From: Lunularia cruciata
Lineage: Eukaryota; Streptophyta; Marchantiopsida; Lunulariales; Lunulariaceae
NCBI GenBank assembly: GCA_948567375.1
Contig: OX419756.1
Span: forward strand, 64,308,333-64,372,332
Length of the DNA: 64,000 bases
Reading direction: 5' to 3'
Within the stretch, counting starts at the first letter, position 1. Every line of letters starts with the position of its first letter. Positions 9,740 to 47,479 of the stretch are shown in pieces. Both the position numbers and the translations under genes were made by a program. Under the pieces are notes generated by a model. It saw only the letters and a list, made by a program, of their open reading frames with translations, made no database searches and was not told the DNA's origin.

Positions 9740-10175
9740 TTGTCATGCCATTTGTAGTGTTGTATCTAGGATTGCTTGACCATTGGAGTTGCAGTGATAA
9801 TAGTTAGAGGTATTTTAGCAGTTTCCCAAAGGTATTTTTGTGTTCAGTGTATTGACTTCACAGTGTGGCCCACTATCACTTTGTACCGTTTGCACCATTG
9901 AGTGTGCCGTCAGCAGGACCGTTAGGGTTCTAGACCTAGCTTGAGTCTAGGGAGATACTTTCAAAGTGCAGCTCCAAAGAGTTCACTTCTCTGATGTTGA
10001 GCCTTTGAGTTCCTGGCTATGGTGGACAGAGGCCAGTGAGTGTCACCTGGATTCTCTTAGCTAGAGTGGGTGTGGCTTGACTATAATCAGTGTCCAATTG
10101 TTAGCAATTTATAAAGTGATAGATCAAGTATTGATTTGAGTTGAGTTGAGTCAAGAGTTGTAAACAATTTGATTA
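9740..10175 (+). repeat. Element B terminal repeat A1
   Basis: From TTGTCATGCCATTTGTAGTG at 9740 to GATTA at 10175 it matches A2 at 19831-20280, as well as 37574-38004, 51506-52630 and the reverse complement of 60649-61101. Unlike the 3' end, it has no copy of the roughly 110-bp B segment (TGTGGCACTTTAGAG..) on either side. Confidence 0.8.
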
Positions 10176-10184
10176 CATCAGAGA
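10173..10184 (+). promoter_or_regulatory. Putative primer-binding site (tRNA-iMet-like)
   Basis: TTACATCAGAG lies directly at the A1 edge and matches the plant initiator-Met primer site TGGTATCAGAG at 8 of 11 positions. Element D has TTACATCAAAG at the same place. Suggestive only. Confidence 0.35.
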
Positions 10185-10639
10185 AGTGAAGTCAGGGGGA
10201 AATTGGGTGCAAAACTACAAGTGTTGGTGGTATCTCCAAGCTCAGTGGATTGTTGGTAGCTTGATCAAAGTTCAGTTTTTCCCTGGTGTGCAAAAGCTTG
10301 TTGCTTGATGTAGATTTGGCAATAAGGCAAATGGTGTGCGGAAGCACTGGCCAATTTTTTAGCAAAGAAGAAGCAAATTTTGAGCAGTGGTTATGATTTT
10401 GAGCTCAAGAGGTGAAGGCAGGACCAATTTGTTGCGAGTTGTGCTCATAAAGTAAAATTGAAGGTGGAGTTGGGAACCTATCCTCATGAATTTGTGATTT
10501 GGAGAAACCTATTTTTCAAATTTGATTGAGAATTAGCGGAGTGAAGAGTTAGCGGAGGATTTGGCGGTCAGCCAACTTTAGGGTTTACATCAAATTTTTG
10601 TTGGAGTTTATGTCAGATTTTGGCCATATTTGGAGGAGT

Positions 10640-11529: not shown

Positions 11530-12830
11530 GGAGTTCTTTGGGGATTCTAAAGGAGTTAATTGTGCAATACCCAATGGGTTTACTTGGAGTGGCATTTGGT
11601 ATAAACATGTATCTCAGGTCCCAGTGAGGGAGTAGATTGACTTTGAGTTGGAGTTTGACACAAGAGCTGATTCAATTGAGAGTGCACTTGGCGTGTCCGC
11701 ACCATTGTTGTGGGACATGGACAAGATTTATGGGGCCTTTGGAGGCCCTAGGTGTTACTCTGGTAAAGTGGGTACCATTGAGTTGGATGACTTCATCCAA
11801 GAGTTTGATAGTTGGTGTGATCTGTAGCAGATGCAAAACCCAACTTTATTTACACCCTTCATGGCATAGAAAGGGTTGTTTCAACATATGCAGGGTCCAC
11901 CAATGGATGACTACCATGAGTTTAGGAGAGCTCATTTGGAGGAGATTGAGTTATGGAGACAGTATTGGTCTTCAAACTATGCCTCTATTACTTTAGGCTT
12001 GGTTGCCAAGAGTAGATCGGTTGTACCCACGAGTTCTAGCTCAAGTAGTGTTGGTGGAGCTAGTGGAGGTGCACTAGCTAGAGATAGTGCTACCACAAGT
12101 GAAGGTACCGCTGTAGGAGGTGGTGTAGTACCAGAGTTTAATCCCATGGTAGAGTTCTTCCAGTGTTTGAGGCAGAACTACCAAGGAGTACGGGCTGACA
12201 AGCTGAGGAGCTTGCAAGATTTCCAACGGAAGGCTAGAGAGAGCCTACGCAAGGCATACACTTGCATAAGGTGGCTGATCAGTTTCACTCAGGGAGTTAC
12301 TGAGGCCCAGGCAGTCCACTTGGTATGAGATACTAGATAGGGAGGTACGACATAGAGTTTGTGATGCTATGTTGTTATAGGCTACTTTGCACACTTTGGC
12401 AATGGTCTTTGGTTTGGCTAAGCGTATTGAGCTCAACATGGTGGAGGAGAGGGTAGTGACATCTCAATTTGGTAGGGAGACCTCATCCACAACTGTTACT
12501 TCTTCTAGAGTGCAACAGAGTGCACCATGCCTAGTTGGTTTTTGAGGACAGGGTGGACAGCCTAGATCCTATGGAGCAAGTGGAGGGCCTAGTGGAGCTA
12601 GACCCTTACCTTCCTTTCAAGGTCAAAAGTAGTCAATGAGTGGTAGTGTTGCTTGTTGGACTTGTGGTGGACCTCACCATAGGAGAGAGTGTACTCAAGG
12701 CAGCAAACTTGATACCTCTTGTGCATTGCAGCCAACACAGAGGCGATGTGAGCATTGCCACAGATTTGGTCATACTAGTGACAGACGCTTTGACCTACAC
12801 CCGAAGTTATGAAGTGGTAGGGCTGCTATG
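11530..12830 (+). pseudogene. Element B gag, with CCHC-type zinc knuckles
   Basis: Capsid-like region with LDDFIQEFDSWCDL near 11790 and PPMDDYHEFRRAHLEEIELW in the ORF at 11876-12328, then a Ser/Gly-rich linker and a helical segment (CLRQNYQGVRADKLRSLQDF). In another frame (12636-12811) it encodes CWTCGGPHHRREC and then CEHCHRFGHTSDRR, two retroviral-type nucleic-acid-binding zinc knuckles. The first is one residue short and the second has lost its last Cys. Element D carries the same knuckle (CDHCHRFGHT) near 43905. Stops and frame changes show it is dead. Confidence 0.72.
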
Positions 12831-12929
12831 GCAGGTAGTAGAGGAGCTCTAGTTCATGGAAGATGAGGTGGTGGTAGAAGATCTACATCTAGTAGATGTG
12901 CAATACCTGCCCTTACTTTTGATACAACT

Positions 12930-13625
12930 ATGGCTACTTGGATTGAGCAGTTGGAGCAGAGATTGGCTAGTATGGCCATTGCTCAAAGGAGATCAGATTT
13001 AGGTGTTGAGGCTTCCACCTCATATGTTGGTAATAGAGATGCTTTGGACTTCATGAGTGGAGTAGCACAGGTGGATGCATCTATAGCAGTGTCTAGGAGT
13101 GCAATATGTGCTCTAGAGCCTAGAGGAGCTTCACTAGAGTTGGACCCATAGAGAGGAGAGGTTGGAAGACAGGTAAGATTTCCCCAGTCTTTCATGCTAT
13201 CTGAGGCATTGTAGATGACATCTATGGCTTCTAGACGTCCCAATGCAGGTGTGCTAGGTAGTGATAGGGTACATGATGGACTACCTACTAGTCAGCCACC
13301 TGCTACTACACAAACTGAGTCAAGCATGATGTTGGGGGCAGCTCAGTTGATTATGCGGTGCCCTTTGTTTTCACCCAGTGACATGTTTACATTGGAAGTT
13401 GACCCAGCCCTAGTGTTCTTGTTGGCTGCCATGCTTTGTGAGAGTAGGGATGATGTGTTTCCTACTACTAGAGTAGAGGTGGTTAACAATAGAGCTGACT
13501 TGGTTGAAGAGCATGGGATCCGTTTAGCGACCAATGGTTTATGGCAAGCAGTAGCGGCTAGACTGGAGGAGTTGCCAACTAGACCGGCCTTTGAGAGAGC
13601 ACAATTCACACTTGGTGTTGTCTAA
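12930..13625 (+). pseudogene. Element B gag-pol linker region
   Basis: ORF segments 12930-13151 and 13215-13625 share a frame offset and lie between the zinc knuckles and the protease. Readable text such as WIEQLEQRLASMAIAQRR is compatible with a short coiled coil. No domain recognised. The same region is present in element D (about 44060-45500), where J2 interrupts it. Confidence 0.5.
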
Positions 13626-14000
13626 TTGGATAACCAGAGGGGGATTTTCTGTTTGGTGGGACTTTCAGGGAAGGTCTATACACAACAAAGAGTCTTGTTA
13701 GACTCTGGTGCACAACACCTTATGTTGGGGAAGGCTACAGTACTCGATCGGGAGTTACAGAAGACCAATGTAGAGAGGTGTCCATTTCAGATCCAAACAT
13801 CTCTAGGTGGTGGTTTGACATAGTACATTACATGTGGAGAGCTTGTTTTTCAGGTTCAGCCTAGTCATCCAACTGATAGCTTGGTGGTGAGAGCTCAGGC
13901 TATTGTGACAATAGCTGAGTCATACAATGTGCTAGTTGGAGGAGCAGTGTTGTATCCCATGGGTTTCAATATTGACTATTGGGAGGAGACAACCTCCTAT
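13626..14000 (+). pseudogene. Element B aspartic protease
   Basis: The segment contains VLLDSGAQHLMLGKATV (about 13690-13740), the DSGA active-site loop of retropepsins, followed by CPFQIQTSLGGG. A second ORF from 13881 contains IAESYNVLVGGAVLYPMGFN, consistent with the C-terminal flap/ILG half. Stop TAG at 13822-13824 separates the halves. The protease would process Gag-Pol. In element D the motif is DSSVQ (near 45588), so it is inactive there. Confidence 0.72.
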
Positions 14001-14399
14001 AGACTAGGTTGGCAGTCTAGTGAAAGACTAATATGTCACCTACTAGTATGCTTTAGTAGTGGTAGTCTTGGCTCACTAAAGTCTGGGATCATGGTAGCAT
14101 CAATTTCAGCTTTCAGTGATGCAATTACTTGGCATGGTGAGTTATTGGAGAGGAACGCCCATGTAGACAATACTCTAGTACTAGAGGAGATCACTCGGAT
14201 TTTGAGTACAAGTTGGATTGTTCTATCCACCTTGGATGTTCTATTGTGGAGTTCAGAGGAGGCATTGTAGCAACATGCAAATTTGTTGGTGCAATAAGCT
14301 TGGAGTGGAGCCTTTGTACCACCAGGAGATGAGTGTGAGGATGAGCCTCCAGAGTCAATTATCTTGACACCTCTAGATACCATACTCATTGCCTGGTAG

Positions 14400-15350
14400 T
14401 ATCCAATAGAGGGAGTATGTCTATTAGAGTTGTTTGGTGGGATTAACACCGGACTAGCTGTGGTCCTATTGGCGGGTATACAAGTATAGAGGTACTTTTA
14501 TATAGAGAGAGATGAGACTACTAGGCAAGTCTCTCTACATCATGTGGCACACTTGGCCTATCAGTATTCAGAGTTATTACTAATGTCAACAATCAAGGGT
14601 TACCATAAAGGCCCTACCAGCAAACATTCATTGCTAGGGGTGCATGATCTAGAGCAACATGGGCCTGTTCATTTGGTGATTTTGGGATGGCCATGTCAGG
14701 GACATACACGTGTTGGCCAAGGTTTGGGTCTTTAGGATCCTTGTTCTGGTGTGTTTTGGGAGATGTTAGAGATACTACAACATCTCTAGGTTCATCAATC
14801 CATTTCTCCAACTTACCTTTTGGAGAACGTTCCTTTGATGGTGGATTCTCACACCAAAGTGGTGGTAACTACACATTTAGTCCATTCTTGGATGGGACCT
14901 GTTGTATTGTTGGATGTAGCCAGAGTGGGATCACGGGCTCATCATCTTCATCTTTAATGGATAAACCTCTTACCCATAGAGATTTTATAGTGTGCATATG
15001 ATGGGATTCAACGACTAGACTACATCCTTGTTGATGACATCTTGGATGTGGTGCGTCAGTCTTAGATGATGGTAGTAGCTGATAAGTCATCTATGGCAGT
15101 GGTGAACCTAGTTGGATAGCCTAGAGCTGCTTTTCCCACACTTATGAGTTTTCCATGCTCTCATGCTTTTCAAGAGGAAGGACCTGGACTTGTTTGGGAC
15201 TCATAGTTATAGCAGTTGGTGGAGCCCAATGCCAATGAGAGAGAGCGGGTGATGGGTTTTTGCACTGGTATTATCATTGTTCTAGCAATATTAGAGACAT
15301 CCAAGTGTCAAGTGTCAAGTGTATCTAGAGTATGGACCTGAATTATTTGA
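14400..15350 (+). pseudogene. C5 DNA cytosine methyltransferase domain embedded in element B pol
   Basis: One reading frame (codon starts divisible by 3) holds the ordered motifs of DNA cytosine-5 methyltransferases. Motif I: LLELFGGINTGLAVVL (14421-14468), AdoMet binding. Motif II-like: YIERDE (about 14496-14513). Motif IV: GWPCQGHTR with catalytic Cys at 14694-14696. Motif VI: LLENVP (14817-14834). Motif VIII-like: VGSRAHHLHL (about 14923-14952). A short target-recognition stretch follows, then motif IX: PRAAFPTLMSFPCSHAF (from 15120), and motif X-like: ERERVMGF (about 15230). About 310 codons, a plausible length for a compact catalytic domain. It lies between protease and RT and recurs in element D at 46260-47170. 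Several TAG stops interrupt it; at 14793-14795 the D copy keeps CAG. Confidence 0.85.
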
Positions 15351-15388
15351 CCTAGATTGTGAGCCTTGGTTTGGCATAGCAACGTAGG

Positions 15389-15870
15389 ATGCGCTTGATA
15401 GGCATCACCACTTGGACACTTGTGAGCCTTGTGCCTATTGAGATGATTCAAGTACATGTTGGGAGTGATGGAGTGAGTGGACATGGTATTCTTGGGATAC
15501 AACCATTAGCTACTAGGGAGAGTAGTCTACTTGGAGTCCATCCAGGTGAGCATGGCTACTTGGATTACACCCTTGATCCACTTGGGATGCAACTAGAGGA
15601 CATGTGGAGCTTGCAGCAAGAGTGGAGGGAGTTTTTCACACAGAGATTGGAACCTCTAGTGGTCGGAGGCATGACACTATTGCTCCCAAGGCCCAAGTGT
15701 AGTAGCCAGTCAGTACATCTTCCACTCTTGCGACAGTTATAGAGGAAACTTGGGAGCTAGATCTTGGACCCAAGCTTACAAGAGAGGAAAGACAAAGAGT
15801 TTGGAGGTTCTTGAGGAACTACACAAGTTGTTTTTCCTTCAATATGAAGGATTTGGGTGCTCTAAAGGGA
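15389..15870 (+). pseudogene. Element B spacer between methyltransferase and RT
   Basis: A 117-codon ORF (15389-15742) and following text have no recognised domain, but the region has counterparts in D (about 47190-47640) and E (minus strand, about 63600-64000), so it is a conserved part of the family polyprotein. Confidence 0.45.
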
Positions 15871-16750
15871 CTTGGTATACAAATTGAGCTGACTAGTTAT
15901 ACACCAGTTTTTTGACATCCTTATTGCTTTAGTGACATGGAGAGGACATCGATTCAAAGCCGGAGTAGAGATCTTTTTGAGGCTGGTTTGGTGGAGATCT
16001 CACATGAAGAGTATGCATCAACTACAGTGATGCCAGCCAAGAAGGATATGCATGGCAACTACACAAATAGGCAGATGTGTGTAGATTACCGTCCTATCAA
16101 CCGATAGACTAGGGCTGATCGGTATGCCATGCCTACACCGGAGGAGATTTTTGATGTGATTGGGCATGCAAAGGTCTTCAGTACATTGGATCTTTGAGCT
16201 ACATATCATCAAATGCCGATCAAGGAGGAGAATAAGTCCAAGGTAACATTTTGTGCTATTGATCCTCATGGCAAGGATGTGTTATATCAATGGAGGTTCT
16301 TACCATTTGGGTTAAAGAATGCTCCTACTGAGTTCCAAAGGGTCATGGATAGGATCCTAGCTGGATTGGATTTTACTCAATGCTATATTGATGACATTTT
16401 AGTCTATAGCACTACTATAGAAGGAGCATGAGAGACAATTGTTGGAGGTGTTTGAGAGGTTGAGATCTCATGGACTCAAATTAGATCTTGGGAAGTATAA
16501 GTTCTTCCATGAGTAGGTTGAGTATTTGGGTTGCACTATCTACCCTGGAGGACTTGGTGTTCAGTAGACCAAGGTGGAGGCTATTGCATGTGTTCCTTGG
16601 CCTACGGATGTGAGCCTAGTGCAAGCATTCCTTGGATTGGTGAACTTCTATCACCACTATGTTAGAAGATTTAGTGCTATTTCCAAGGCCTTGACAAAGC
16701 TGACCAAGCTTACACAAGAGCAGTGTTGGGAAGATGAGTAGGAGAGAGCT
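15870..16750 (+). pseudogene. Element B reverse transcriptase
   Basis: Blocks in order: KKDMHGNYTNRQMCVDYRP (about 16037-16095), RYAMPTPEEIF (16120-16152), STLDL.ATYHQMPI (finger/palm), QWRFLPFGLKNAPTEFQRV (about 16290-16345) and the catalytic CYIDDILVYS (16381-16410), with YIDD in place of YVDD/YADD. A one-base shift near 16425 follows. The thumb/connection (VEYLGCTIYP, VQAFLGLVNFYHHYVR) continues to about 16670. Stops at 16105 and 16566 are TAG; 16196 is TGA where Arg (CGA) is expected. Ty3/gypsy type. Confidence 0.85.
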
Positions 16751-17210
16751 TTTGTTGAGCTCAAGGAGAGGTTGACATTTGCTCTTATTTTGAGAAGACC
16801 AATCAGAGGATGACCATTTCAGGTTCATATTGATTGGAGTTTGTTGGAGCTTGGAGTGGTGCTCACCCAACATGATGATGAGGGGAAGGAGTTTGTGGTG
16901 GCCTATGCTAATCGCTCCAACAATTCAATGGAGGCAAAGTATAGTTCATATGAGGAAGAGTGCTTGCCAGCATTTTGGGCAGTAGCATATTTCCGATTGT
17001 TACCTATTTGGTAACCCCTTCACTCTCATCATTGATCATTAGCCACTGAAGTGGTTGATGGAGTCCAACAAGCTTTCATGGAAGCTTGCGTGATGGGCTC
17101 TAATTTTATATGAGTATGATTTCACAATTGTTCACGGACCTAGAGTGGTGAACCGTGATGCAGATGGGTTGAGTAGAAACCCATGTCCTAGCCAACAGGA
17201 TCAAACTGGA
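16751..17210 (+). pseudogene. Element B RNase H
   Basis: Reads HIDWSLLELGVVLTQHDDEG (about 16825-16880), KEFVVAYANRSNN (16890-16930) and AKYSSYEEECLPAFWAV (16935-16985). The segment ending VVNRDADGLSRNP (17140-17180) is the usual end of Ty3/gypsy RNase H before the integrase. The first catalytic Asp and the Glu are visible. Stops are TAG at the positions where D has Gln (CAA). Confidence 0.78.
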
Positions 17211-17539
17211 GCACGTTGGCATGGTAAGACAGATGAGGAGATGGTGCCAAGTTGGCATACATTGGTCTTTTTTGTATATTTTTTAAGGCTTTGGCGGTAT
17301 CTCTCTCAGCACATATAGGAGAAGTTATTGAGGTCACAAATCCAAAGAGTAAAGATATTGGTATAGTTTAGCAAGGCATTCATGATGATGTCTTAGTGAT
17401 GGACTATCTTTGCACTAGTGTTGTGGGTGGCATATTTGGGGCCAAGGAGACTCTATTCTTCAGCAAGCCAGACGGTTCAGATTGGAGGGTAGATCTTCTT
17501 TGGGTATGGAAGGATAGTAGAGTACAAGTAGTATTACTT

Positions 17540-18360
17540 CCATCTCAGAAACCATAGTTGGTCCATCATGCTCATAAGGAGTTAGGACATTTTGGAGTAA
17601 AGCGTACATATAGCTTACTCTAGAGTTATTATTGGTGGTGCAGTATGCAAACCAAGGTACAACAGTTTGTTGCCAAATGTGTGGTTTGTGACCAAGTTAG
17701 AGCATCATTCAATACTCCTACGCCATAGTTACACCCATTACCTATCATGGGATTGAGTTATTGTTGGAGTTTGAACTTTGCTGGACCTTTATCGTTGACA
17801 GTGAGACATCATTGGTATGTTTTGGTGATGGTGGAGCACTTCTCCAAGTGGATTGAGTTGGTGGTACTTCTTGACAAGTCTAGTAAAGGGACAGCTTACT
17901 TGTTCTTGGATCAAGTTCTTAGTCATTTTGGTGCACCAACTAAGGTTTTGATTGATTAGGGTACAAAGTTCTTGGGGGAGTTTCAGGTCTTGTGTGACAA
18001 GGCTTTGATTGATCATCATACTACATCCCGAGATCAACCTAAGGCAGATGGCTTAGCAGAGAGAGTGGATCACATGGTGAACAGAGGATTGCAGAAGTAT
18101 GGTTTGCAGAGAGGCCACTTGGGAGATTGGGATCTCCAGTTACCTTGGTTGGCCATGGGCTATTGGTTCAGCCAGCAGGCCTCCTTAGCATCCTTCTCTC
18201 CTTACTTTCTACTCTATAGAAAAGATCTAAATTTACTTGCAGCCATTTGTCAAGATGCTATTGTAGTTTTGGACTTGGATGATCCAGATATATGGATGAG
18301 CGCATGTTCTCAACAGGCAGAGATCTTTTAGAGAGTGATGTCGATGGCCTTTGAGAACTT
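17540..18360 (+). pseudogene. Element B integrase (HHCC and DDE core)
   Basis: The zinc-binding head reads LVHHAHKELGHFGVKRTYSL..VAKCVVCD (17560-17700). The core has the first Asp mutated to Asn (LNFAGPL, codon 17774-17776; Asp is retained in element D), the second Asp in VLID (17954-17956) and the Glu in GLAERV (18059-18061). The last two fit the D-35-E spacing. DLQLPWLAMGYWFSQ and SPYFLLY follow. Integrase inserts the cDNA. The stop at 17957 is TAG where D and E have CAA. Confidence 0.85.
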
Positions 18361-18399
18361 GGCAATTGCTTAGCATAGAGATACCTTATGTTATGCTAC

Positions 18400-18811
18400 C
18401 ATTTGAGGAGGAGGTTATAGACCCTCAATCCATTGATTTCATCCAGGTGACTTTGTTTATCTATAGCATACAGCACCAACGACACTTGATGTTTTGACAG
18501 GCCACACTATCTTGAGAGTGCGTGAGGTTTTGCCATTTGGAGTCCTTGTGTTGGAAGGATGTGATGGTGTCGTTTGGAAGGATCATGTGTGCAATTGTGC
18601 GCCACGCCAACTACCAAACATTGATGGTACTATAGACCCAAGCTTGGCACTTGTACATGCAAGCTTGAGGTGTATGTTATGTGGTTCTTTTGGTAGATTT
18701 GCTACTATGTTAGTATGTGATAGTTGTTTGAGAGGATGGCATATGGCATGTATGACTCCTCCCCTCATAGTGGTTCCTCAAGGACAATAGTTATGTCCTA
18801 GATGTACTTGA
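18400..18811 (+). pseudogene. Element B polyprotein C-terminus with PHD finger
   Basis: The ORF 18494-18790 continues the integrase C-terminal domain (ILRVREVLPFGVLVLEG) and ends in a zinc finger, 18671-18805. The spacing is Cys-x2-Cys, then MLVCDSCLRGWHMACMTPPL, then VVPQGQ, a TAG exactly at the conserved Trp, and LCPRC. The C4-H-C3 spacing with VCDxCxRGWH..C..PPL..VP.GxW.CPxC is the plant homeodomain (PHD) pattern, which reads histone H3 tails. E keeps both the first CxxC and RGWH; D has lost the first pair. No chromodomain seen. In the family a targeting role is plausible; the sequence alone does not prove it. Confidence 0.82.
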
Positions 18812-18941: not shown

Positions 18942-19680
18942 TGTACCAAGAGCTAGCCATATGATCTAGATGTGAAATTTGGTTTGGTAATATCTATAAT
19001 GATGTTATACATGATGGTAAAAATAGATAAGATAGAAGTATCACCAAAAGAGTACTTCTACTTATAGAGCAAAAATCAAAATAGACTTGAGAACCTTAGA
19101 ACCAATAGCTAGACATATGATTTAAAGATGAGAATTGGTTTGGTAACATCTGGAAGGATGTCACACATGATGGACTAAAAAGATTAGAAGGAGGTGTCAC
19201 CAAAAGGGGACTTCTACTAATAGAGTAGGAACCAAAATATGCCTGAAATCTTTGAAGGCAATTTTGGAGGCCTAAACGGATGAATTAGACCTCAAAAATG
19301 TGTGAATTCCTCCCCCCCCCCCCCCAAAATAGAGGAATGGTTTGCCTTCCCTCCTGCCTGGTTTGTCTTCTTGAGAGCTTTTTAATGATATCTTACTTGA
19401 TTTTGAGACTCCTAAAGGAAGATTCCCTAAAAGATTCCCTCTAGTCAAAGCTTGTTTGACCAACAGATTGGACCTAGACCGACATGTCACCCATCCAAGT
19501 AAGTAATCCAAGGGTGGAGCTTGCTGACAGGTCACCTATCTGTGTGTCTAATCCTATGGTGGAGCTTCCTTGGAGAAGATCCTCTTTGTCTATATAATAA
19601 AGAGAAGGTGCTCCTTTGGGGCACCAAATGTTGAGTGTGTAATTTTTGTTTCTCTCTTCTCTTGTCCTCGGAGTTTTACA
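18942..19680 (+). mobile_element. Solo LTR J1
   Basis: 739 bp from TGTACCAAG to GTTTTACA, flanked by CTATT (18937-18941) and CTATC (19681-19685). Element D is uninterrupted at the same position (51340-51350). The same unit occurs reversed at 44443-45186. Inside are a C run of 14 (19312-19325), TATATAATAAAG near 19593, and a roughly 156-bp offset tandem duplication (ACCAAGAGCTAG at 18945 and ACCAATAGCTAG at 19101). Parent element not in the window. Confidence 0.85.
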
Positions 19681-19708: not shown

Positions 19709-19724
19709 CAGCTAGGAGGGCAAT
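19709..19724 (+). promoter_or_regulatory. Polypurine-tract-like site before B1
   Basis: CAGCTAGGAGGGCAAT precedes TGTGGCACTTTAGAG. D (CTAGGAAGACAAT) and E (minus-strand CTAGGGAGGCGAT) have the same arrangement, which supports B1 as the start of the 3' terminal repeat. Confidence 0.5.
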
Positions 19725-20465
19725 TGTGGCACTTTAGAGTCTATGTATGACTTATGTGTGAGTTGTGCTTCTATAGTGTATGATGTTGACAGCGATGTAT
19801 GTTATGTAGCAATGTATATGCGCATGATAGTTGTCACACCATTTGTAGTGTTGCATTTGGATTGCTTGGACATTGGAGTTGTAGTGATAGTAGTTAGAGG
19901 TATTTCAACAATTTCCCATAGACTACTTTCCAATGGTCAGATTTCATGTTTGGGGTACTGACTTCACGATGGAGCCCATTATCACTTTTTCACTGTTCAC
20001 ACTATTGAGTGTGCTATCAGCGGGACCATTAGGGTTCCAGACCTAGCTCAAGTCCAAGGGTATACTTTTGAAGTGCAGCTCCAGAGAGCTCACTTCTCTA
20101 ATGTTGAGCCTTTGAGTTCCTGGCTATGGTGGACAAAGGCCGGTGAGCATCCCTAGATTCTCTTAGCTAGAGTAGGTGTGGCTTGACTATAATCAATGCC
20201 TAGTTGTTGGCAGTTTATAGAGTGACTGATCAAGTACTGATCTAAGTTGAGTTGAGTCAAGAGTTGTAAACAATCTGATTATTGTGGCACTTTAGAGTCT
20301 ATGTATGAGTTGTGCGTGTATATGTGTAAGTATGTGTATGTGTGTGTATGTGGCACTTTATGAGTCTATGTGTGATTTGTGCGTATGTGTGAGTTGTGCT
20401 TTTATAGTGTATGATGTTGACAACAATGTATGTTGTGTAGCAATGTATATGTGCACAACACCCCC
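19725..20465 (+). repeat. Element B 3' terminal block B1-A2-B2
   Basis: B1 is 19725-19830 (TGTGGCACTTTAGAGTC to GCGCATGATAG). A2 is 19831-20280, matching A1. B2 is 20283-20465, which repeats the B1 start and ends near GTATATGTGCACAACA. B2 contains a TG-rich expansion and a partial internal duplication of its own start (TGTGGCACTTTATGAGTC at 20350). D and E end in the same three-part order. Confidence 0.8.
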
Positions 20466-20849: not shown

Positions 20850-22680
20850 TAAATCTATTTTTCCCTTCATTGGACTTATCAAGAAGTCCCACCAACTTAA
20901 TCTACTTGGAGAAGTGTTCTACCATCACTAGAACATACTAATGATATCTCATAGTCAATGATAAAGGTCTAGCAAAGTCCAAACTCAAGTGGTAATCTAA
21001 TCACATATTAAGTGTTGGGTGTAACTATGTCATAAGAGCATTAACTTGACCACAAACCACACATCTTACAAAAATATTTTAAGTCTTGGTTTGTATACCA
21101 TGCACAAATAATGATTTTAAAGTAAGCTATATGTTTTTTTCACTTCAAAATGTCATAGCTTCCCATGAGCATGTCTTACCAATTGTGTTCTTTGAAATAA
21201 AATTGGTAGTACCCACACTCTATCATCTTCTTGTAAACACAAAAGATGTTTCTACTCCAATCTAAACTACCTTGCTTGTTGAAGTACCATGATCTCTCTC
21301 CTTAACACTCATTGTGCTAATTTCAATAGAAGTGTGAAGATATTCAACCACCATCATTATCATGAATATCTTGTTGAATTTTTTAATATCCCTATTTTTT
21401 GGATCTTGAGACCTCAAAAAATCCTCTTGTTTGCACAAAAAGAGCTACTACCAAACCCCAAATCAACATACACCAAAAGATGAATGTATGCTAATATGAT
21501 CTTGTCCAATCATACTTGTTGGTACAAAGGTTTCTAGTTGAACTATTTGACGGTTCACTACTCCAAGTTTGTGCAAAATTATAGAATCATACTCTTGTAA
21601 ACATAGAGCATATAATTAAAGCTACCTTAAAAGCTTGTTGGACTCCATCAACAACTTGAATGGTTGGTGATGAGTGACAAGAGTGAAGGGATCTCCAAAA
21701 AAATAACATTAGAAATATACTACCATCCTCATTTCTAAAAAAACTTCATTCATATGAGCATATGAGTTATACTTTATATTTATTAAAATTTTGCAGTGAC
21801 TAGCATAAAACCACTATAAACCCCTTTTCCTTGTCATCTTATCGGGGAAGTATTGCTCAAAGATCCAATATGCTCTAATAAATATAAACTTAATCAATCT
21901 TTTAAGGATAGTGGAGGATGTTAACTTATCCACTACAAAAGAGCACTACAAAAGCTCTCTCTTGCTCAACTCCCAATATTACTCATGTTTTAGTTGGTCA
22001 ACTTTATCAATGTCTTGGTAATTGTGCTAAATCCTCTAATATATTGGCAAAAATGGTTTTCCAATCCAAAGAATACTTGCACTATACTCACATCTATAGG
22101 TCAAGGAATATAAATAATAGTCTCCACCTTTTTTTTTTGAATACCAAGTCCAATAAGGTAGATAGTAGGACCCAAATACTCAACCCACTCAAGATGTAAT
22201 TTGAGTATATGTTATCTTGATCTCTCAAAAACCTTAATAGAAATCTCTCATGCTCCTCCATATTAGCATAATATATCAAAATGCAATTAACAAAAAATCA
22301 AGCAAAATCAAATCCTCTTTGGATCCTCCTATCCATGACTCTTTGGAACTCAATAAGAGAAGATCTTAACCCAAATAGTAAGAATCACTTTTGATATAAC
22401 ACAACTTTATGATCAATATCAATTACCCTAAATGTTCTCTTGGCCTTATATTGCTCTATGATTGACTATTGATTGTAACTTGCTCAAAGATCCAAAGTAC
22501 TAAAGATTTTTACATGTCCAATCAGATCAAAGATCTACTTTGGTGTGGATATTGTATACCAATCAAACTTAGTTTTTCATTTGATAGGATAGAAAATCTC
22601 CAAATATCCACCTATCCATATAGTTGCCATACACATATTTCTTGGCTAGCATCATAGTGGCAAAAAGAAAGCATTTGCAC
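20850..22680 (-). pseudogene. Degenerate pol fragment G of the B/D/E family
   Basis: Minus-strand remnant colinear with element E. 20850-21340 matches the integrase region of 62290-62790 (for example ATCTACTTGGAGAAGTG), 21610-21850 matches RNase H (GACTCCATCAAC), and 22290-22660 matches the RT start (CCATACACATATTTCTTGGC). It is AT-enriched and full of indels, more decayed than B, D or E, and ends at about 22680 with no terminal repeat found. Confidence 0.7.
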
Positions 22681-37573: not shown

Positions 37574-38004
37574 ATTTGTGGTGTCAAAGCTAGATTACTC
37601 AAACACTAGAGTATTAGTATTGGTAGTTAAAGGTATTTTGGCAATTACTCATAGACTACTTGTTGACAATCAAATTTCATGTTTGAGGTACTGATCACAT
37701 GGTGGGCCTCACTATTACTCGTACCATTTGCACCATTGGTTGTGCCATTAGTGGGACCTTTAAGGTTGGAGACCTAGGTCAAAATTAGAGGTATGACTTC
37801 AAAGTGTAGCTCTAGAGAGCTCATTTCTCTGATATTGAGTTCTTGGATATAGTGGACAAAAAGCCGACAAGCATCACCTAGAGTCTCTTAGCTAGAGTGG
37901 ATGTGGCTTGACTGTTATAAGTGCCTAGTTGTTGGTAGAGTGTTGAGTGAATGATCAAATACTAATCAGATCTGAGTTGATTCAAGTTGATGAAGAACTG
38001 ATTA
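37574..38004 (+). repeat. Element D terminal repeat A1
   Basis: ATTTGTGGTGTCAAAGC.. to GATTA, colinear with A1 of B. It abuts F coding sequence on the left and the primer-site-like TTACATCAAAG on the right, with no B segment at either edge. Confidence 0.78.
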
Positions 38005-38929
38005 CATCAAAGAAGTGATAGTCAAGAGGAAATATGGTGCAAGAACTGGGGGGTATTTGTGGTATCTCCAAGTCTGATTGATCATTGGTGCCTTGATTAC
38101 AGTTCATATTTCCCTAAGAGTGATTGTGTGTGGAAGTGTTGGCCAAATTGTGGTGAGAATAGAGTCAATTTCAAGCTGTAGTGTTTGATTTGAGCTTAGG
38201 AGGTGTAAGTAGGGCCTATTTGGTGAAAGTTGAGCTCAAAATGCAAACTTGAAGGTGGAATTAGGAACCCATCCTCACAAATTAGAGATTTGGAGGTCCC
38301 TATCTTTCCAATTTGGCTCAAGCAGAGATTTAGCAAAGAATCTAGTAGTCAGTTAACTATGTCAGATTTTACGTCAGATTTGGTGGAGGATTTACTTCAA
38401 ATTTATGTCAAATTTTGGCCAAAGGAAGTTTGATTCTATTTCTTGGTGATCTTGGTAGCTTAGGAAGTAGATAGATACTTCTATTATATCGAATGCCAAA
38501 TGGTGAGAAAGTCAATCTGGTATTGATTCATGAGATGGAGGGTTTTGTTTAGCCTTCTTGTGATTGGACTTTCTCCGTTCTCAACTTCTTGTTTGTGCAC
38601 CCTGTTTATGTGAGGTGCTCTAAATTTAGAGCATTGGTGCTTTGGTGTGCTCTTGGTAGTGAGGTTGGAGTGATGACTAATTAGACTACTTGTGTTTCTC
38701 TCTAGTGAGGTAGGAAGTGATGACCTATAGACCATGAGAATGCGTGTTGTGATGGCAGGTTACCTTTCCCCTAGTGTAGGGGTTGTAGTGTTAGAGCTAC
38801 ATTAATGGGTGGTGTTCAATTGGTGGTGGCACTTGGTGGGTACTTGCGATGGTTATGATTGGCCGGTTATGATTGGTTATGATTATCACTTGATTATTAC
38901 TGATGAGTTACTATGTCACAGCGGAGTTC

Positions 38930-39636
38930 TTTGAGGATTCCCAAGGAAATAACACTACAATACACAATGGATTTACTCAAAGTGACGCTTGATATCAACC
39001 TATATCTTAGGTCCCAATGAGGGAGAAGATTGACTCCAAGTTGGAGTTTGATACATGGGCTAATTCAATGGAGAATGGACTTGGTGTGTTTGCACCATTT
39101 TTGTAGACATGAATGAGATTTATGGGGCCTCCAAAGGCCTTAGGTGCTACTCTAGTACAATGGGTATCATTGAGTTGGATAACTTCATTCGGGAGTTCAA
39201 TAATTGGTGTGATATGTAGCAGATGCAGAATCCAACTTTGTTCACACTGTTTATGGCATAGAAGGAGTTGTCTTAACACTTGGATGGTCCACCAATGGAC
39301 AAGTATGATGAGTTCAAGAGAGCTCACTTGGAGGACATTGAGCTATGTAGATAGTATTGGTCTCCAAACTACATCTCCATCACTTCAGGCTTGGTTTCTA
39401 GGGGTAGATTGACAATACCCACAAGTTCTAGCTCTAGTAGCATTGATAGATCTATTGGAGATGGTGCTACTACAAGTGGAAATACCACTACAAGAGGTGG
39501 TGTAGTATTGAGGTTTGACCCCATGGTTGGGTACTTCCAATGTTTGAGGCAAAACTACTAGGAAGTGCAGATTGACAAGGTGAAGAGCTTGCAAGAGTTC
39601 CAATGGAAGGCTAGAGAGAGCCTACACAAGGGATAC
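38930..39636 (+). pseudogene. Element D gag, first part
   Basis: Colinear with B 11530-12260 (for example GCGGAGTTCTTTGAGGATTC, then text for the DEFKRAHLEDIEL helix near 39310). Interrupted by C1 after TCCAATGGAAGGCTAGAGAG..GGATAC. Confidence 0.65.
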
Positions 39637-40024
39637 TGTGGTGCCCACATTTTTTGTTTTTTTTCAGAATAAAGGAGAAGAAGTGTATAGAGAAGTTGGA
39701 TTGCGCATGTATGGCCAAAGAAGGCAAAGAAAAGAGTCTTTGGGATGAAACCCAAAGTAAAGTGACTTCAGGTAAGAAGGCAAAGTACTCGGAAATGCCC
39801 TGTTAGCATACAACCCGGAGTAAATTGTCTTTGGATCGGGAGGGAGCTCAACCTGAGGCAAAGACAGTCTAACGACCTTTCATCGGGGCGAGAAATTCAA
39901 GAAGGGGCCATTTGAAAACTGGCGGCTCATATGCGCGACGGTTGATTGATAGTGACAGGTGCATGTGGGAGGTGTGATTTCTCGGTAGGAACTCAAAGTG
40001 ATGGAAGACAAAGAAGCGCAACTC

Positions 40025-40032
40025 TATAAAAA
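40025..40032 (+). promoter_or_regulatory. TATA-like box in C1
   Basis: TATAAAAA lies 20 bp before the ATG at 40052 and about 390 bp into the unit. C2 keeps TATAAAAATTG at the matching place. The ATG at 40052 may be too close to a start site governed by this box, so translation might begin at a later ATG (for example about 40189 or 40316). Confidence 0.4.
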
Positions 40033-40051
40033 TTGGAACTGCAACGACAAA

Positions 40052-42625
40052 ATGTCAAGCAATTTTCCTTCGCCGTTGAGGAGTCGTCTTGCAAGTGATT
40101 GGGGAAAGGGAAATAGAGTTGGACTTGTGTTAGTGCGCAAGGGAGAAGTTGCGAGAGTGAAATCAAGAGAAAGTGAGAAGGTAGAAGAGATGGGAGGAGG
40201 GAAGAAGAACTCCAAATTTGTAGTGAGAAATCATGCGATTCGGAGGTTAGACGTGATAGCAAAGATCAAAGTCTTGAGCCGACTTTGGATCACATTTTTG
40301 GCATGGAACTAGAATGTGAGTTTTCCAGGATTCATGACAGAAATCATCGAGAGTAAGTGTCTTGATGGACCCGAGGAAGAAGGGAAGAGAGGAAATCCGG
40401 CTTGCTGGATAGAGTTTGATTGGAGGCTTGTACTCGGGAAAGAAGCAGGCTCGGAGCAGGGGGCCACGTTCTTGGGGAAGGGAGAGATAGCTCAAGAGAC
40501 TCAAGAGGTGAGAGATACCTTCTCATTGAAAAGAACAAAGAATGGGTATAAAGTTGAGAGTTACAAGGATCCAGTGAAGAGAGGGATTGTGAGTGCTCTC
40601 ATGGCGATCTTGAAGCCGGAGAGAACAACTTATGTGATGAAACACCAAGCGGTGTTCTTCCATAAGTTGTTTGCAGGAGAACCAATCAATTGGGCAAGGT
40701 GTTTTCATGGGAGAACAAGGCAGATGGTGTGGAATCTACGAGATAAGTCGCCTCCACACTACATCGTGCCGTTTGCAGCACACTTCTACCTTGGGCTCAA
40801 TTTGCTGAACTCGGCGGAGCGGACGTGAATGGTGTCGCACTTCCATCCTGATGTGCAAAAGGAGGTTGATGTCAAGGAGCAACAATACATTCTCCAAATC
40901 TGGAGCACGGACAACTACTACACAAAGACAAGGAAGAACGTGGAGGTTGCAGTGAGTACCCCAACAAAGAAGAGAAGTTGGCAAGGTGAAACCAAAGAAA
41001 GCAAGAAACCTTGGAAGATGCAGAGAAGTAACCCGAGGCAAGGTATGGTGGTAATTGAGTCGGAGGATGAAGACTCAAAAGGAGATGATGAGATCAAAAT
41101 GGAAGACTCGGAACACAAGGAGGAGCCTGAGCTAACGTTTCAGAGTGGAGGTACGAGCAGCAATAGTGATGAAGGTGGAGAGGTGACATTGGCGCCAACG
41201 GCTGCAGAATACGAAGAAGAAGTGCAAGCCAAATTGGAAGCCAAAGACAACACACCGTTGGAAGACAAAGTACCGGTGCCCGAGGAGAAGAAGATCGCAG
41301 TACAGCAAGGAGTTTGCTTGCGACGTAAGGCAAAGTGTGAAGCGGGGCCGAGTAGAGTGAAGGAAGAGGTAGAAGAAAGCTTGGGCAGTGAGGCATCAAT
41401 CCCGATACGAAGACTCCAGAGAAGAAGGCGAGTATCAGGAGAACATGAGGAGAGAAGAAAGACCACTCCACGGGAGGAAGTAGTTGCCAGTGATGGAGTG
41501 GAGTACTTGCGAGAGGTAGTGTGCCCATTGTTGGTGAAGTTGGAGCACAAGAAGAAGGAGATGCAGTCGACTTGTCCAGAGGTAAAAATTGTATTGCAGG
41601 TGGTAGCAAAATTAGAAGAAGGAAACTCGGAGTTGAAGAAGAGTGTAACCCGAGGTGAGGAGGAGAGAGAAGTATTGCAAGCGGAGGAAGTAGAGAGAAA
41701 TCAGGTAATTGAAGACCTGAAGAAGGAAGTGAGCTATCGAGAGGATCTTGCAAGGAAGAGTGACATAGCAAGAGAGAGACAGTTAGCTGAATATGAAATC
41801 TTGAAGCAACAGTTTGCTGATTCAAGAGTAGAACTTATCCATGCTATGGCAAGGGTAGCAGCGAAGGATCAAGAGCTCGATAGAGTGATGGAGAGTATGG
41901 AGGAGAAGAAGCAACTCTGGCAAAGAGAGTTGGCTACACGGTATAGAGAAGAAGAGAGATTACGAGAGTTACTTCGTAATCAGGAAGAGAAGGTTGTACA
42001 GAAGGAGAAGAAGAAGGAGATGGTGAAAGCCGAGTTTGAGGCGGAGTTGGCAATGTATCAAGACGAATGGCTTGCAGATCGGGAACAAGAAAGGAAGACA
42101 AGATTGGAGCCACTGAAGGAGATTGTCCTCAGGGTGAACGTGATGTTAAGTACAGAGGCCAGCGTTCAAATTGAAGAAGCACAACTACACAAGTTAAAGT
42201 TGTTGGTGCAGGAGACAAGGCGAAGACAAGCAAAGGATACTGATATGAACGCCTTGTTGATCAAATTAAGAACTCGTGTACATAGGAAGATATTAGAAGT
42301 AGAAGACAATGTTTCAATTAGATTAGACTTGGTGAAAATCAAGATAGAGAAGCTTCGGAGGGATGTTAGAGCAAAACCCGAAGTAGATAATATAGGAGTA
42401 CAAATGTCTTCGGAGTTGCTATCAGAGACATTAGAGAAGAGTGGGTTGGGAGATAAGGAGTTAGATAGATTACCCACTAGTGGAATTTCAGATCAGGAAA
42501 GAGAATTGTTGGATTTGGTAGAAGACATAGAAGATACAAGACCCGAGGAAAGAGTAGTAGGAAGTAAGATTACTACGGGTTCGGGTTTGAAAGCCGAGGA
42601 AGAAGTAGACATCGGATTGGATTAG
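40052..42625 (+). pseudogene. C1 ORF: about 857-residue coiled-coil protein of unknown function
   Basis: A single frame is open from 39998 to 42625 except for TAG at 40310 and TGA at 40826. In C2 the matching codons are not the same stops: Trp at the first, CGA (Arg) at the second. Residues 1-260 form a globular, Trp/Phe-rich region (VSFPGFMTEIIESKC, INWARCFHGRTRQMVWNL, PPHYIVPFAAHFYLGLNLL). Then comes an acidic linker (ESEDEDSKGDDE), a basic patch (RRLQRRRR) and about 300 residues of heptad-rich coiled coil (for example ATRYREEERLRELLRNQEEK). I recognise no known family; gag, CCHC and enzyme motifs are absent. Codon use keeps many CAG codons, unlike the older pol genes around it. The smallest reading without stops is 598 residues from 40829. 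Confidence 0.7.
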
Positions 42626-43423
42626 TAATAGATTTGAGATTTGAAGTGGTAGATATGAAGAGGTGCATTGTCATTTTGGATCTGCAGGTTAGAACAGTTG
42701 TGGTAGAACGGTATAGTTGTTAGAACTGTCAATTTGTTCACTACTTAAGAGTGGCATTTGCAGTATCATGTTGTTCAATGCTCATTATTTCTGAGAATAG
42801 ATAAAGCAAAGTGGTGTGAAGCAGTGCTCGTCGCTTGAGCTTGATTCTGAGTATCAACTTTGCAATTGTGTTTGTGAGTGTTTGAAGAAATTCAAAGTGC
42901 AAGTCAGAGTGTTTGTTGGATGTTGGATTCCACAACCTTGATCTTCATTCTGTGTGTTTGATCTTGAGTGAAGTGCAATCGGAGCAATGCCTTAACAAAT
43001 CTGAGAGGAATTGTAGTGTTGGTAGTATTCTGCATTTGTGAGTGTAGTGCAAAGTTGATGTGAAGCAATTTTGATCAAGGAAGTTGTGCCTTTAGTGGAG
43101 GGGTGGAACACAATTCTGAGGTGAAGTCGTTTTGCAATGAAGTGCCATTTTCGGGAGAGCCTGAATCATCACAATGAAGATTGTTTGGAAAGAATTGAAG
43201 GATTTGTGATTAAGGAATGTTAATTTGTGACAAGACTGCGAGTCAGTGCTTGTTACTCTCTTCTGGGTGTGGTTTCTACCTAAGAGACTAAAGAAGAACT
43301 CAAGAAGAACTGAAATTGTTACTTTGCTTTGTATTTGGACATTTCTAACTTGTATCTTTGCGGGAACAAACTTTACTTACCCGATTACCACAAAAGTGAT
43401 ATTTGCCGGGTTGTCATAGATAC

Positions 43424-44440
43424 AATCACATGAGATGGTTGATCAATTTACTCAAGAAGTTACTAAAGGTCCAAGTATTCTAATTTTGGTATGAGATCAT
43501 GGACAAGGAGTTGTGATGTAGAGTACATGATGTTACATTGTTACAAGCTACTTCACCTACATTGGTACTGGTCTTTGGTTTGGCTAAGCACATTAAGCTC
43601 ATCATGGTGGAGGAGAGAATGGTGACATCTAGATTTAATAGGGAGACCTCATCCACAATTGTTACTTCTTCTAGAGTACAACAAAGTGCACCATGCCATG
43701 TTAGCTTTTGAGGGAAAAGTGGACAACCAAGATCCTATGGAGCAAGTGGAGCTAGATCCTTACCTTTATTTTTAGGTCAATAGTAGCCAATGAGTAGTGA
43801 TGTTTTTTGTTGGAGTTGTGGTGGATGTCACCACAAGAGAGATTGCACTCAAGGCATCAAACATGATACCTCTAGTGTATCATAGCCATCATAGAGAATG
43901 TGTGACCATTGCCATAGATTTGGTCACACTGTTGATCAATATTGATCAATACTTTGACCTTTATCTAGAGTTATGGAGTGATAGGGCTGCTATAGCAAGT
44001 AATAGAGGAGCTCCAAGTCATGGAAGACAAGGTGGTGTAGAGGATCCGCACTTGGTAGGGATGCAATACTTGTCCTTACTTTTAATACAACCATGGCTAC
44101 TCTGATTGATTGGAGTAGAGATTGGCTAGCATGACCATAACTTAGAGGAGATCAGATTTGGGTGCTGAGGCTTCCACCTCTTATGTTGGTGATAAAGACA
44201 TCTTGGAGTGTAGAGCAACACAAGAAAATACATTTGCCTGTAATGACTAGGAGAAGCCTACAGGAGAATCAATGGAGTTGTACCCATAGAGAGGAGAGAT
44301 TGGTGGATAGGTTAGACTTCCTCACTCTTATACACTCTTTGAGGCATTGCAAACATCCATGGCTCCTAATTGTCTTAGTGTAGGTGTGGTAGGTAGTGAT
44401 GGGATGCACGATAGACTACCTACTAGTCAACCACCTACTA
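43424..44440 (+). pseudogene. Element D gag, second part
   Basis: Resumes where C1 ends (AATCACATGAGATGGTTGATC matching B 12262 onward). Carries the second zinc knuckle CDHCHRFGHT near 43903-43932 and the linker. Interrupted by J2 at 44443. Confidence 0.65.
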
Positions 44441-44442
44441 CT

Positions 44443-45186
44443 TGTAATACTCTGAGGACAAGAGAAGAGAGAAGGCACAGATTGCACACTCAAACATTCA
44501 ATGCCCCAAGGGAGCACCTTCTCTTTATTATATAGACCAAGACGATCTCCTCCAAGAAGCTCCACCCTAGGATCAGGGACACAAATAGGTGACATGTCAG
44601 CAAGCTCCACCCTTGGATTACTTACTTGGATGGGTGACATGTATGGTCTAGGTCCTATCTGGCTGGTCAAACAAGCTTTGACCGGAGGGAATCTTTTAGG
44701 GAATCTTCCTATAGGAATCTCAGAATCACATGAGTAAGGTACCGTTGGAAAGCTCTCGACGAGACAAAGCAGGGGGAGGGAAGGCCAGCCTTTCCTTTGT
44801 TAGGGGGGGGGTATAGAATGTGCACATTTTTGAGGCCTAATTCATCCGTTTAGGCCTCCAAAATTACCTTCAAAGATTTCAGGCATATTTCGGTTCCTAC
44901 TCTATTAGTAGAAGTCCCCTTTTGGTGATACCTCTTTCTGATCTGTTTAGTCCATCATGTGTAACATCCTTCCAGATGTTACCAAACCAATTCTCACCTT
45001 TAAATCATATGTCTAGCTATTGGTTCTAAGGTTCTCAAGTCTATTTTGGTTTCTGCTCTATTAGTAGAAGTACTCTTTTGGTGATACTTCTATCTTATCT
45101 ATTTTGACCATCATGTATAATATCATTCTAGATGTTACCAAACCAAATTTCACATCTAGATCATATGGCTAGCTCTTGGTATTACA
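44443..45186 (-). mobile_element. Solo LTR J2
   Basis: Reverse-complement copy of J1, flanked by perfect CTACT duplications (44438-44442 and 45187-45191). TGTAAT..ATTACA ends on the plus strand. Contains a run of about 10 G at 44802-44811, the counterpart of the J1 poly-C. Element D sequence is continuous across it. Confidence 0.87.
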
Positions 45187-45499
45187 CTACTACACCAATT
45201 GAGTCTAGCTCGATGTTGGAGACAATTCAATTGATTATGCACTTCCTTTTATTCTTAACCAATGATATGTTTACATTGGGAGTTGATCCAACTCTAATGT
45301 TCTAGTTGTCTCCCACACTTTGTGAGAGTAGAGATGATGTGATTCCTACTTCTAGAGTAGAGGTGGTTGATAGTGGAGCTGACTTGGGTGAGGAGCATGG
45401 ATCCACTCAATGACCAATGGGTTATGGCAAGCAACAACAACAACTAGATTGGATGAGTTACCAGCCGGACCTGCCTTTGAGCAATCACTGTTCACACTT

Positions 45500-45900
45500 G
45501 GAGTTGTCCTATTGGATAATTAGAGGATGTTTTTCTATTTGGTGGGAATTTTAGGGAATATACACCATAGATGGTCTTATTAGACTCTAGTGTGCAACCT
45601 CTTATGTTAAGGAAGGTTGTAGTTGTTGGTATGGAGCTAAGGAAGACCGATGTGAGAGATATTCATTTCAAATCCAAATATCTCTAGGGGTGGTTCTACA
45701 CAGTACATCACATATGGAGAGCTTGTTATCCAAATTCAACCTAATCATCTGACTGATAGCTCTGTGATGAGAGCTAATGCTATTACAATAGTAGTTGAGT
45801 CATATGATCTGCTAGTTGGTGGAGTAGTATTATATTCCATGGGTCTTAGTATTGACTACTAGGAGTAAACAACCTCCTATAGACCAAGTTGGCAGTCAAG
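45500..45900 (+). pseudogene. Element D protease
   Basis: Colinear with B 13626-13990. Active-site loop is LLDSSVQPLML (near 45575-45605) instead of LLDSGAQ. PFQIQI..RGGST-like and YDLLVGGVVLYSMGLS follow, with stops. Confidence 0.65.
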
Positions 45901-47170: not shown

Positions 47171-47479
47171 CAAGTGTTAGGTCAGGTTATGAATCTAAAC
47201 TATTTGACTTGGATTATGAGCCTTGGCTTGGCAAAGTAGCATAGGATACAATTGATAGGCATCACCACTTGGGAGCTCTGTGCATATCAAGATGATTTAG
47301 GCACATCTTGGGAACAATGGACCAAGTGGGCAAGGTATTCTTGGGACACAACCAATGGCTACTAGTAAGAGAGGTCTACTTGGGGTCCATCTAGGTGAGA
47401 ATGGTCTACTTGGGTTACACTCTTGGTCTACATGTGATGAACCTAGAGGACGTATGGAGCTTGTAGCCAGATCAAAAGG

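Follow-up and report, generated by a model that had tools for sequence, protein, structure and literature searches.

A Ty3/gypsy-type retroelement family of green plants with a DNMT3-type methyltransferase domain and an integrase PHD finger, and its split terminal repeats in Lunularia cruciata

A Ty3/gypsy-type retroelement family of green plants encodes a DNMT3-type DNA methyltransferase (DNMT) domain, which in the liverwort Lunularia cruciata is joined to the gag-protease frame, together with a PHD finger on its integrase. The copies found in the 64,000-nt stretch of L. cruciata DNA analysed here (the window) are the dead remains of this DNMT-bearing element, and less damaged copies lie elsewhere in the same genome, whose estimated size is more than twice that of Marchantia and which has seen bursts of Ty3/gypsy elements (PMC9985172). 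The family poses a paradox: plants silence such elements by DNA methylation, yet this one keeps, in many green plants, what appears from its coding sequence to be a working methyltransferase under selection. The paradox is open to experiment, because one genome holds many copies with an open DNMT and because relatives occur in Marchantia, a laboratory model. Judging by relatives from liverworts, mosses and green algae, the pairing of DNMT and retroelement is common across green plants. The anatomy of the element, moreover, suggests that DIRS-like repeats and a DDE integrase are here united in one retroelement, and so touches a long-standing problem, namely whether integrases can use circular DNA as their substrate.

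Results

Decayed copies of the element in the window

The window holds three copies of the family (A, D and E) and a more distant relative (B), whose features are collected in Table 1. In copy A, C5-methyltransferase motifs follow one another in a single forward frame, from 14322 to about 15300, between the protease and the reverse transcriptase (RT): motif I (LELFGGINTGLA), motif IV (GWPCQGHT), motif VI (LLENVP) and then the PTLMSF region, with an AHHLHL region as the alignment partner of motif VIII, the whole domain being interrupted by ten in-frame stops. A preliminary description, made from the sequence, had proposed this ordered set, and searches with profiles and structures bear it out. 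With X written at the stops, the frame matches PF00145 at E=1e-4, narrowly passing the family cut-off (22.3 bits vs 22), and its best matches among solved structures are DNMT3A and DNMT3B (human DNMT3A, E=8e-5). The limits proposed for the domain in copies A and D, 14400-15350 and 46260-47170, come close to those mapped against the open copy L013 (Table 1). The label 'X-like', which had been given to ERERVMGF, is off; this is a conserved block that precedes motif X itself, LGQAMDLNCLTW, and in copy A the latter lies out of the frame of the other motifs. The claim that the same motif set recurs in copy D holds through full-length alignment to the open-copy domain, although Pfam searched at E up to 1 does not recognise the copy D piece when it is taken alone.

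Table 1. Features of the element copies in the window (positions are those of the 64,000-nt stretch)
Feature	Positions	Strand	Basis or remark
Copy A, repeat A at 5' end, begins TGTC	9741..10175	+	9740-10175 81.9% identical to 19831-20281
Copy A, conserved block inside 5' repeat A (catcagagaagtgaag...), putative primer binding site	10176..10201	+	role inferred from position
Copy A, gag part of frame 1, decayed	11717..13769	+	alignment to open copies
Copy A, retroviral-type aspartic protease region	13770..14399	+	alignment; RVP_2 E=0.0067, below cut-off
Copy A, DNMT3-type C5 methyltransferase domain	14400..15409	+	85.6% identity to open copy L013; decayed: premature stops, frame changes
Copy A, frame 1 tail, ends in conserved TAG (15700-15702)	15415..15702	+	alignment to open copies
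Copy A, reverse transcriptase and RNase H (16048-16558, 16724-17120)	16048..17120	+	alignment; Pfam on open copies
Copy A, integrase: H2C2 zinc finger, DDE core (rve), C-terminal region	17528..18652	+	alignment; Pfam on open copies
Copy A, PHD finger at integrase C terminus	18653..18808	+	PF00628 E=2.3e-6 in window frame; 2.2e-10 in L013
Copy A, later insertion	18944..19680		89% identical to 45181-44443
Copy A, repeat B1, after G-rich tract (polypurine-tract position)	19724..19829	+	
Copy A, second repeat A (A')	19832..20281	+	
Copy A, repeat B2, 3' end, longer than in other copies	20282..20460	+	
Copy B, more distant relative (about 68%)	20862..22654	-	RT-RNaseH-integrase only
Copy D, broken by nested insertions	37574..52679	+	
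Copy D, DNMT domain	46277..47266	+	77.8% identity to open copy L013
Copy E, frame 1 end to PHD and 3' repeats	60546..64000	-	window ends before DNMT

Copy A is flanked by CCCT and CCCC, a target duplication that agrees in three of four bases. Other repeats share the window. The insert of about 740 bp in copy A, which contains an internal 157-bp repeat, has a counterpart in copy D in the opposite orientation. A 3.8-kb inverted pair (39623-43420 and 52677-56473, 86% identical), one member of which is nested in copy D, belongs to another mobile element. Dispersed repeats of about 0.5-0.7 kb, found in both orientations and 67-90% identical, resemble non-autonomous elements (33175-33846, 49439-50130, 51798-52490, 58627-59314, 59958-60527 and 26528-27066), two of them lying inside copy D. 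Searches of the 64,000 nt for tRNAs and Rfam families returned no match.

Open copies encode two frames separated by a conserved TAG

Across the genome (565,766,749 bases in 74 contigs, about 558 Mb of it in eight contigs that are each between 60 and 85 Mb long), PF00145 gave at least 123 scored matches, host genes included; many of these lie in open frames, the longest of 1428 codons. Twenty regions were taken from the 123 mainly for their long open frames, which biases the sample to young copies, and these are much alike, with a median identity of 97% in the DNMT stretch (19 copies). Since the copies are young and alike, features that they share are not independent observations. The longest frame 1, in L009, runs for 1428 codons from stop to stop, or 1330 from the likely first Met, and comprises a gag part, in which two zinc knuckles can be recognised by eye, a protease, likewise recognised by eye, and the DNMT. 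Frame 2 is 1037 codons long in both L012 and L013 and carries RT, RNase H and a DDE integrase in one frame, the order of Ty3/gypsy elements, followed by a C-terminal PHD finger (Pfam in L012: RT 6e-32, RNase H 3e-36, H2C2 2e-18, rve 1e-12, PHD 7e-10). Neither L012 nor L013 has a Chromo match, and the PHD finger occupies the place after the integrase.

When copies were chosen by their PHD finger instead, the DNMT was at its expected place in 18 of 20, the other two having none in the stretch taken. Copies without this segment, which the preliminary description named as a refuting outcome, are thus the exception in this sample. The domain moves with the element, which disposes of a host gene that happens to lie beside it. 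At locus L017 a different gypsy element, with an 899-codon RT-RNaseH-integrase frame and a CpG observed/expected ratio of 0.13, lies inside or beside the copy (7304-10000, reverse strand).

The frame that contains PCQ was present in 23 of the 24 loci examined, and all 23 keep a TAGCAG near 337 codons after it, in frame in 21 of them; in 22 of the 23 the TAG is followed by CAR-YYA. UAG-CAR-YYA is the context of the TMV-type leaky stop. Low-rate read-through at this TAG would yield the methyltransferase in gag-like excess, to be packed together with the RNA. Alternatively, the in-frame TAG may be the relic of one recent master lineage, with frame 2 expressed by other means such as splicing or internal initiation, a reading that we regard as possible but rather unlikely. 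The near-identity of the copies, which makes a shared TAG weak evidence, would suit it, as would the many relatives in which RT, DNMT, integrase and PHD finger are parts of one protein. Against it, copies A, D and E of the window have the TAG as well, despite differing from L013 by about 11 to 18% in the tail of frame 1; frame 2, where it is open, follows in the same phase as frame 1; and the protein models of relatives from Marchantia and from metagenomes, which are gene models, likewise end some 300-370 residues after PCQ.

The methyltransferase domain is closest to DNMT3

Among the open copies of this genome, L009 and L010 match PF00145 with E-values of 3e-7 and 2e-7, respectively. A family profile built from 12 sequences reached 4e-17 against DNMT3A, compared with 5e-10 for the plant DNA methyltransferase 4onj and 1e-8 for DRM2 among its other best rows, 7e-6 for HaeIII, 2e-5 for HhaI and 2e-5 to 2e-4 for DNMT2-type enzymes. 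The structure model of a relative has the Rossmann-type methyltransferase fold, with the motifs in a common fold, and the 50 Foldseek rows among the matches listed for this model are all DNMT3 entries. The domain of the element is thus closer to DNMT3 than to DRM, DNMT2 or the bacterial enzymes. Motifs I, IV (with the catalytic Cys), VI, VIII and X follow in this order, without permutation, in open copies and relatives alike.

The genome also contains frames that we judged by eye to be DNMT3-like (L001 and L004), DRM-like (L002) and CMT-like (L003). The DNMT3-like and DRM-like host frames share with the element domain the catalytic fold and the straight motif order of DNMT3, and a long branch separates L001, the sole outgroup of the DNMT tree, from the element domains. 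Unlike a whole DNMT3 protein, frame 1 of the element has no recognisable ADD or PWWP domain: with Pfam at E up to 0.1, L009 matched PF00145 only, and L010 added a sub-threshold gag match.

The catalytic Cys is present in 67 of 69 and 113 of 113 aligned relatives in two alignments, and the motif VI Glu in 70 of 72 and 113 of 113. Over 20 copies dN/dS is 0.37 [0.30-0.46] for the DNMT, 0.24 for RT-RNaseH and 0.46 for the integrase. By these measures the methyltransferase appears to be under selection. Chance resemblance to a methyltransferase is ruled out by the profile, fold and conservation results. A structural or nucleic-acid-binding role, for example as a chaperone of RNA or cDNA, in which catalysis is not the point, is in our view very unlikely. 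The related domain of the Klebsormidium element KnitGypsy-Dnmt3 produced no methylation in yeast, a result that would fit such a role and that its authors judge inconclusive (PMC5890265); the near invariance of the catalytic Cys and the motif VI Glu across distant relatives, by contrast, is what would be expected if catalysis is selected. Motif IV shows one further peculiarity: in 78 of 113 aligned relatives of the RT-DNMT type (P0079 and P0104-P0215) a Glu replaces the Pro before the catalytic Cys (mostly GWECQD), a substitution that we know from no other C5 methyltransferase.

Relatives occur in bryophytes and green algae in two domain orders

Protein searches gave lists of 44, 58 and 120 (of 129) relatives. 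Among the matches listed, bryophytes are represented by Marchantia polymorpha, M. paleacea, Sphagnum fallax and S. troendelagicum, and algae by Klebsormidium nitens, Monoraphidium neglectum, Haematococcus lacustris and Scenedesmus sp. PABB004, together with many unnamed proteins. The best named protein matches are from M. polymorpha, and the Marchantia members of the family stand in public databases as hypothetical proteins. No named vascular plant appeared among the matches listed, which, in a word-based search, is weak evidence of absence. The proposal of a land-plant, or at least streptophyte, version of such elements is therefore right as regards Marchantia, Sphagnum and a charophyte, and too narrow in that the range extends to chlorophyte green algae. 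One relative is labelled as a Minisyncoccia bacterium MAG and is probably a misassigned contig; a scan of IMG/VR found two loci (L029 and L030) with short relatives at 46% and 33% identity.

Two domain orders occur. Of 35 relatives placed in one set, 11 have the DNMT before the RT, including those of this host, Marchantia and Sphagnum, and 24 have the order RT-RNaseH-DNMT-integrase-PHD; in a second set the RT precedes the DNMT in 100 of 112, the other 12 having no recognised RT. In chlorophyte relatives the DNMT sits between RNase H and integrase. On the DNMT tree, whose outgroup is a single host DNMT3, 46 sequences with the DNMT-RT order or with DNMT only form a clade (support 0.95), the RT-DNMT order forms no supported clade (0.45, with P0089 outside), and P0096, from K. 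nitens, falls outside every other sequence. On the RT tree, 21 RT-DNMT sequences form a clade (support 0.84) and the DNMT-RT order forms no supported one (0.13 for four, with P0074 outside). Distances in the DNMT go together with those in the RT (Mantel r 0.74 over 26 sequences and 0.73 within 21 of one order; reached in 0 of 5000 permutations each), so the domains share a long history. Because the PHD finger is common to both domain orders, we prefer a single early joining, after which the DNMT changed its position; the alternative is that a DNMT was joined twice, from a similar source.

Split repeats and target duplications suggest a circular intermediate

Copies start with TGTCACGCC and finish with CGCACGACA, with TGTC and GACA as their ends. 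Between these lie repeat A (449 bp), the internal part, a G-rich tract, repeat B1 (106 bp), two bases, a second repeat A (A', 449 bp) and repeat B2 (106 bp). The 5' A is followed by the block that begins with catcag, and never by B, in 17/17 copies in which this border was read; in L009 the 5' A is represented by no more than about 70 bp, while in L016 it was not found. The G-rich tract precedes B1 in all 20 copies, and 18 of the 20 have B-A-B at the 3' end, with a B1-to-B2 spacing of 557 in 15 of these. The inner junction between B and A reads GACA-GC-TGTC in 12 of the 18 copies with A' and is off by at least one base in the other six.

Of the 18 copies for which both ends could be read, 16 are flanked by exact 4-bp target duplications, that of L026 having been recognised by eye. 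The remaining two, L012 and L021, have none, and their B repeats have diverged from each other by 9 and 22%, compared with 0 to 2.8% in the other 16 of the 18 copies compared; since the lack of a target duplication coincides with divergent B1 and B2, both are probably recombinants. B1 and B2 are closer within copies than between them, a mean as low being reached in 0 of 5000 shuffles. Two copies, L017 (5' end unread) and L024, stop after B1, without the second A-B unit, and could stem from one-repeat circles or from later recombination between B1 and B2. L024, one of the 16, has an exact 4-bp target duplication despite its short A-internal-B form.

The copies of this genome thus show the short target-site duplication of Ty3/gypsy elements, with A-internal-B-A-B in place of the same LTR at both ends. 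Ordinary LTRs that have lost a piece in one copy are excluded by the 17/17 borders between A and catcag and by the target duplications of 16/18 copies. Because its ends carry different repeats, the layout should not arise from an ordinary LTR cycle; and because the borders of A and B coincide with the places expected of a primer site and of a polypurine tract, the product of reverse transcription should be B-A-internal-B-A. We propose that the priming sites of reverse transcription are the block next to A and the G-rich tract next to B, and that the ends of B-A-internal-B-A would then be joined into a circle, where A would meet B as GATTA|TTGTGG. The integrase, possibly guided by its PHD finger, would cut this circle at the palindromic or near-palindromic B|A junction and insert it, and a circle opened at this point would have precisely the observed layout. 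If both strands were cut after CA, the ends would carry 5' overhangs of two bases, like those that retroviral integrases produce. If this is right, the staggered cut at B|A would give ready-processed ends without any joining of linear LTR ends.

A DIRS-like copying of the RNA from end to end, with the inner B-A serving only as a bridging template and with no circle as the integration substrate, seems to us doubtful, if distinctly conceivable. A-coding-B-A-B is the DIRS-type order, and the repeats of KnitGypsy are described likewise (PMC5890265, legends of Figs 1 and 4); set against this are the DDE-type integrase and the 4-bp target duplications, and the position of the G-rich tract and the block resembling a primer binding site exactly at the borders of B and A, as expected for LTR-type priming. 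Our preferred scheme remains the circle. Circles, read-through and packaging are all inferred from the anatomy of the element, and the complete model, in which the TAG is leaky, the DNMT is packaged, and circular cDNA is methylated before integration and cut at B|A, strikes us as somewhat more probable than its failure.

Decay of window copies and the target of the methyltransferase

Counted at columns where the copies agree, C-to-T changes in copy A amount to 62 of 182 CG, 117 of 399 CHG and 119 of 1887 CHH sites; the corresponding counts are 79/176, 149/382 and 196/1830 in copy D and 26/54, 31/90 and 61/651 in copy E. Nine of the ten stops in the copy A domain sit, by eye, at Gln positions of the open copy L009. 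The high CG and CHG decay is explained by host silencing; it is typical of plant DNA that has been methylated and silenced, and no sign of self-methylation as such. Open copies show no clear extra loss of CpG, with ratios of 0.46-0.49 vs 0.46-0.57 in five control stretches, which adjoin chromodomain matches and contain long open frames. The test took entire 10-kb regions, which for six copies include some flanking DNA, and pieces of the family ranged from 0.31 to 0.59. Since CpG is comparable to that of the controls, there is no mutational trace of strong CG self-methylation.

In the proposed model the methyltransferase would act on double-stranded, probably circular, cDNA of the element before integration, which might make the cDNA resemble host DNA or keep the integrase off it as a target. 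That it acts instead on host chromatin round new insertions, or on competing elements, as copy-number control or niche marking, we think unlikely. Host DNMT3 enzymes do work on chromatin, the integrase carries a PHD finger of the chromatin-reader kind, and a slower transposition rate is a possible benefit according to de Mendoza et al. (PMC5890265). The place of the domain, in the gag-protease polyprotein or between RNase H and integrase, speaks rather for an enzyme probably made together with the particle, as the cDNA model would have it.

Comparison with known systems

That methylase elements exist in green algae was already known, and we did not find this gypsy type described there in the accessible part of the main source (PMC5890265). 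At the level of titles and the beginnings of abstracts, with subscription papers and preprints outside the scope, the matches listed contain no report of the family in land plants, and the main text of a survey of plant LTR elements mentions no methyltransferase, PHD finger or Marchantia (PMC6317226).

Chromoviruses resemble the element as Ty3/gypsy elements with a domain of the chromatin-reader type after the integrase (PMC2864245 and PMC3350952, at the level of titles and beginnings of abstracts), the reader being a chromodomain there and a PHD finger here. The element further differs from them in the presence of a DNMT and in its split repeats. Chromoviruses have, to our knowledge, ordinary LTRs and no DNMT.

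Split direct repeats are shared with DIRS elements, which use a tyrosine recombinase and are not known to make a target duplication; the present element, with its rve match (1e-12) and 4-bp target duplications, is unlike them in both respects. SymbioDIRS-Dnmt3 of Symbiodinium has, like this family, a DNMT3-type domain, two domain orders and DIRS-type repeats, and its domains methylate CG in yeast; it belongs to a different class of retroelement, with a tyrosine recombinase where the present element has a DDE integrase (PMC5890265).

The closest published case is KnitGypsy-Dnmt3, the DNMT3 that de Mendoza et al. (2018) reported in a gypsy element of Klebsormidium nitens; they regard it as independently acquired in the lineage of that alga and saw purifying selection on it (PMC5890265). 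Like the present element, it combines a gypsy polyprotein containing a DNMT3-type domain with DIRS-like repeats. The K. nitens protein KFL_013780020 (P0096), which we infer to be a copy of KnitGypsy, is 36% identical, has gag and protease upstream of the DNMT and ends before the RT. The main text of that report does not mention a PHD finger, which the integrase of the present element carries, and its accessible account of KnitGypsy contains no leaky stop, target duplication or land-plant members (PMC5890265). The relatives found here, in bryophytes, a charophyte and chlorophytes, likewise differ from the picture of an acquisition within the K. nitens lineage given there.

The circle reading, if true, would suit the methyltransferase elements with DIRS repeats in general, that is, DIRS elements with adenine methylases, SymbioDIRS and KnitGypsy. 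SymbioLINE elements do not fit it, having a DNMT without DIRS-type repeats (PMC5890265). As a very tentative extension, which we think rather unlikely to hold in full, there may be a class of green-plant retroelements in which a DDE integrase opens a two-repeat circle at its inner B|A junction after the element's own DNMT has methylated it.
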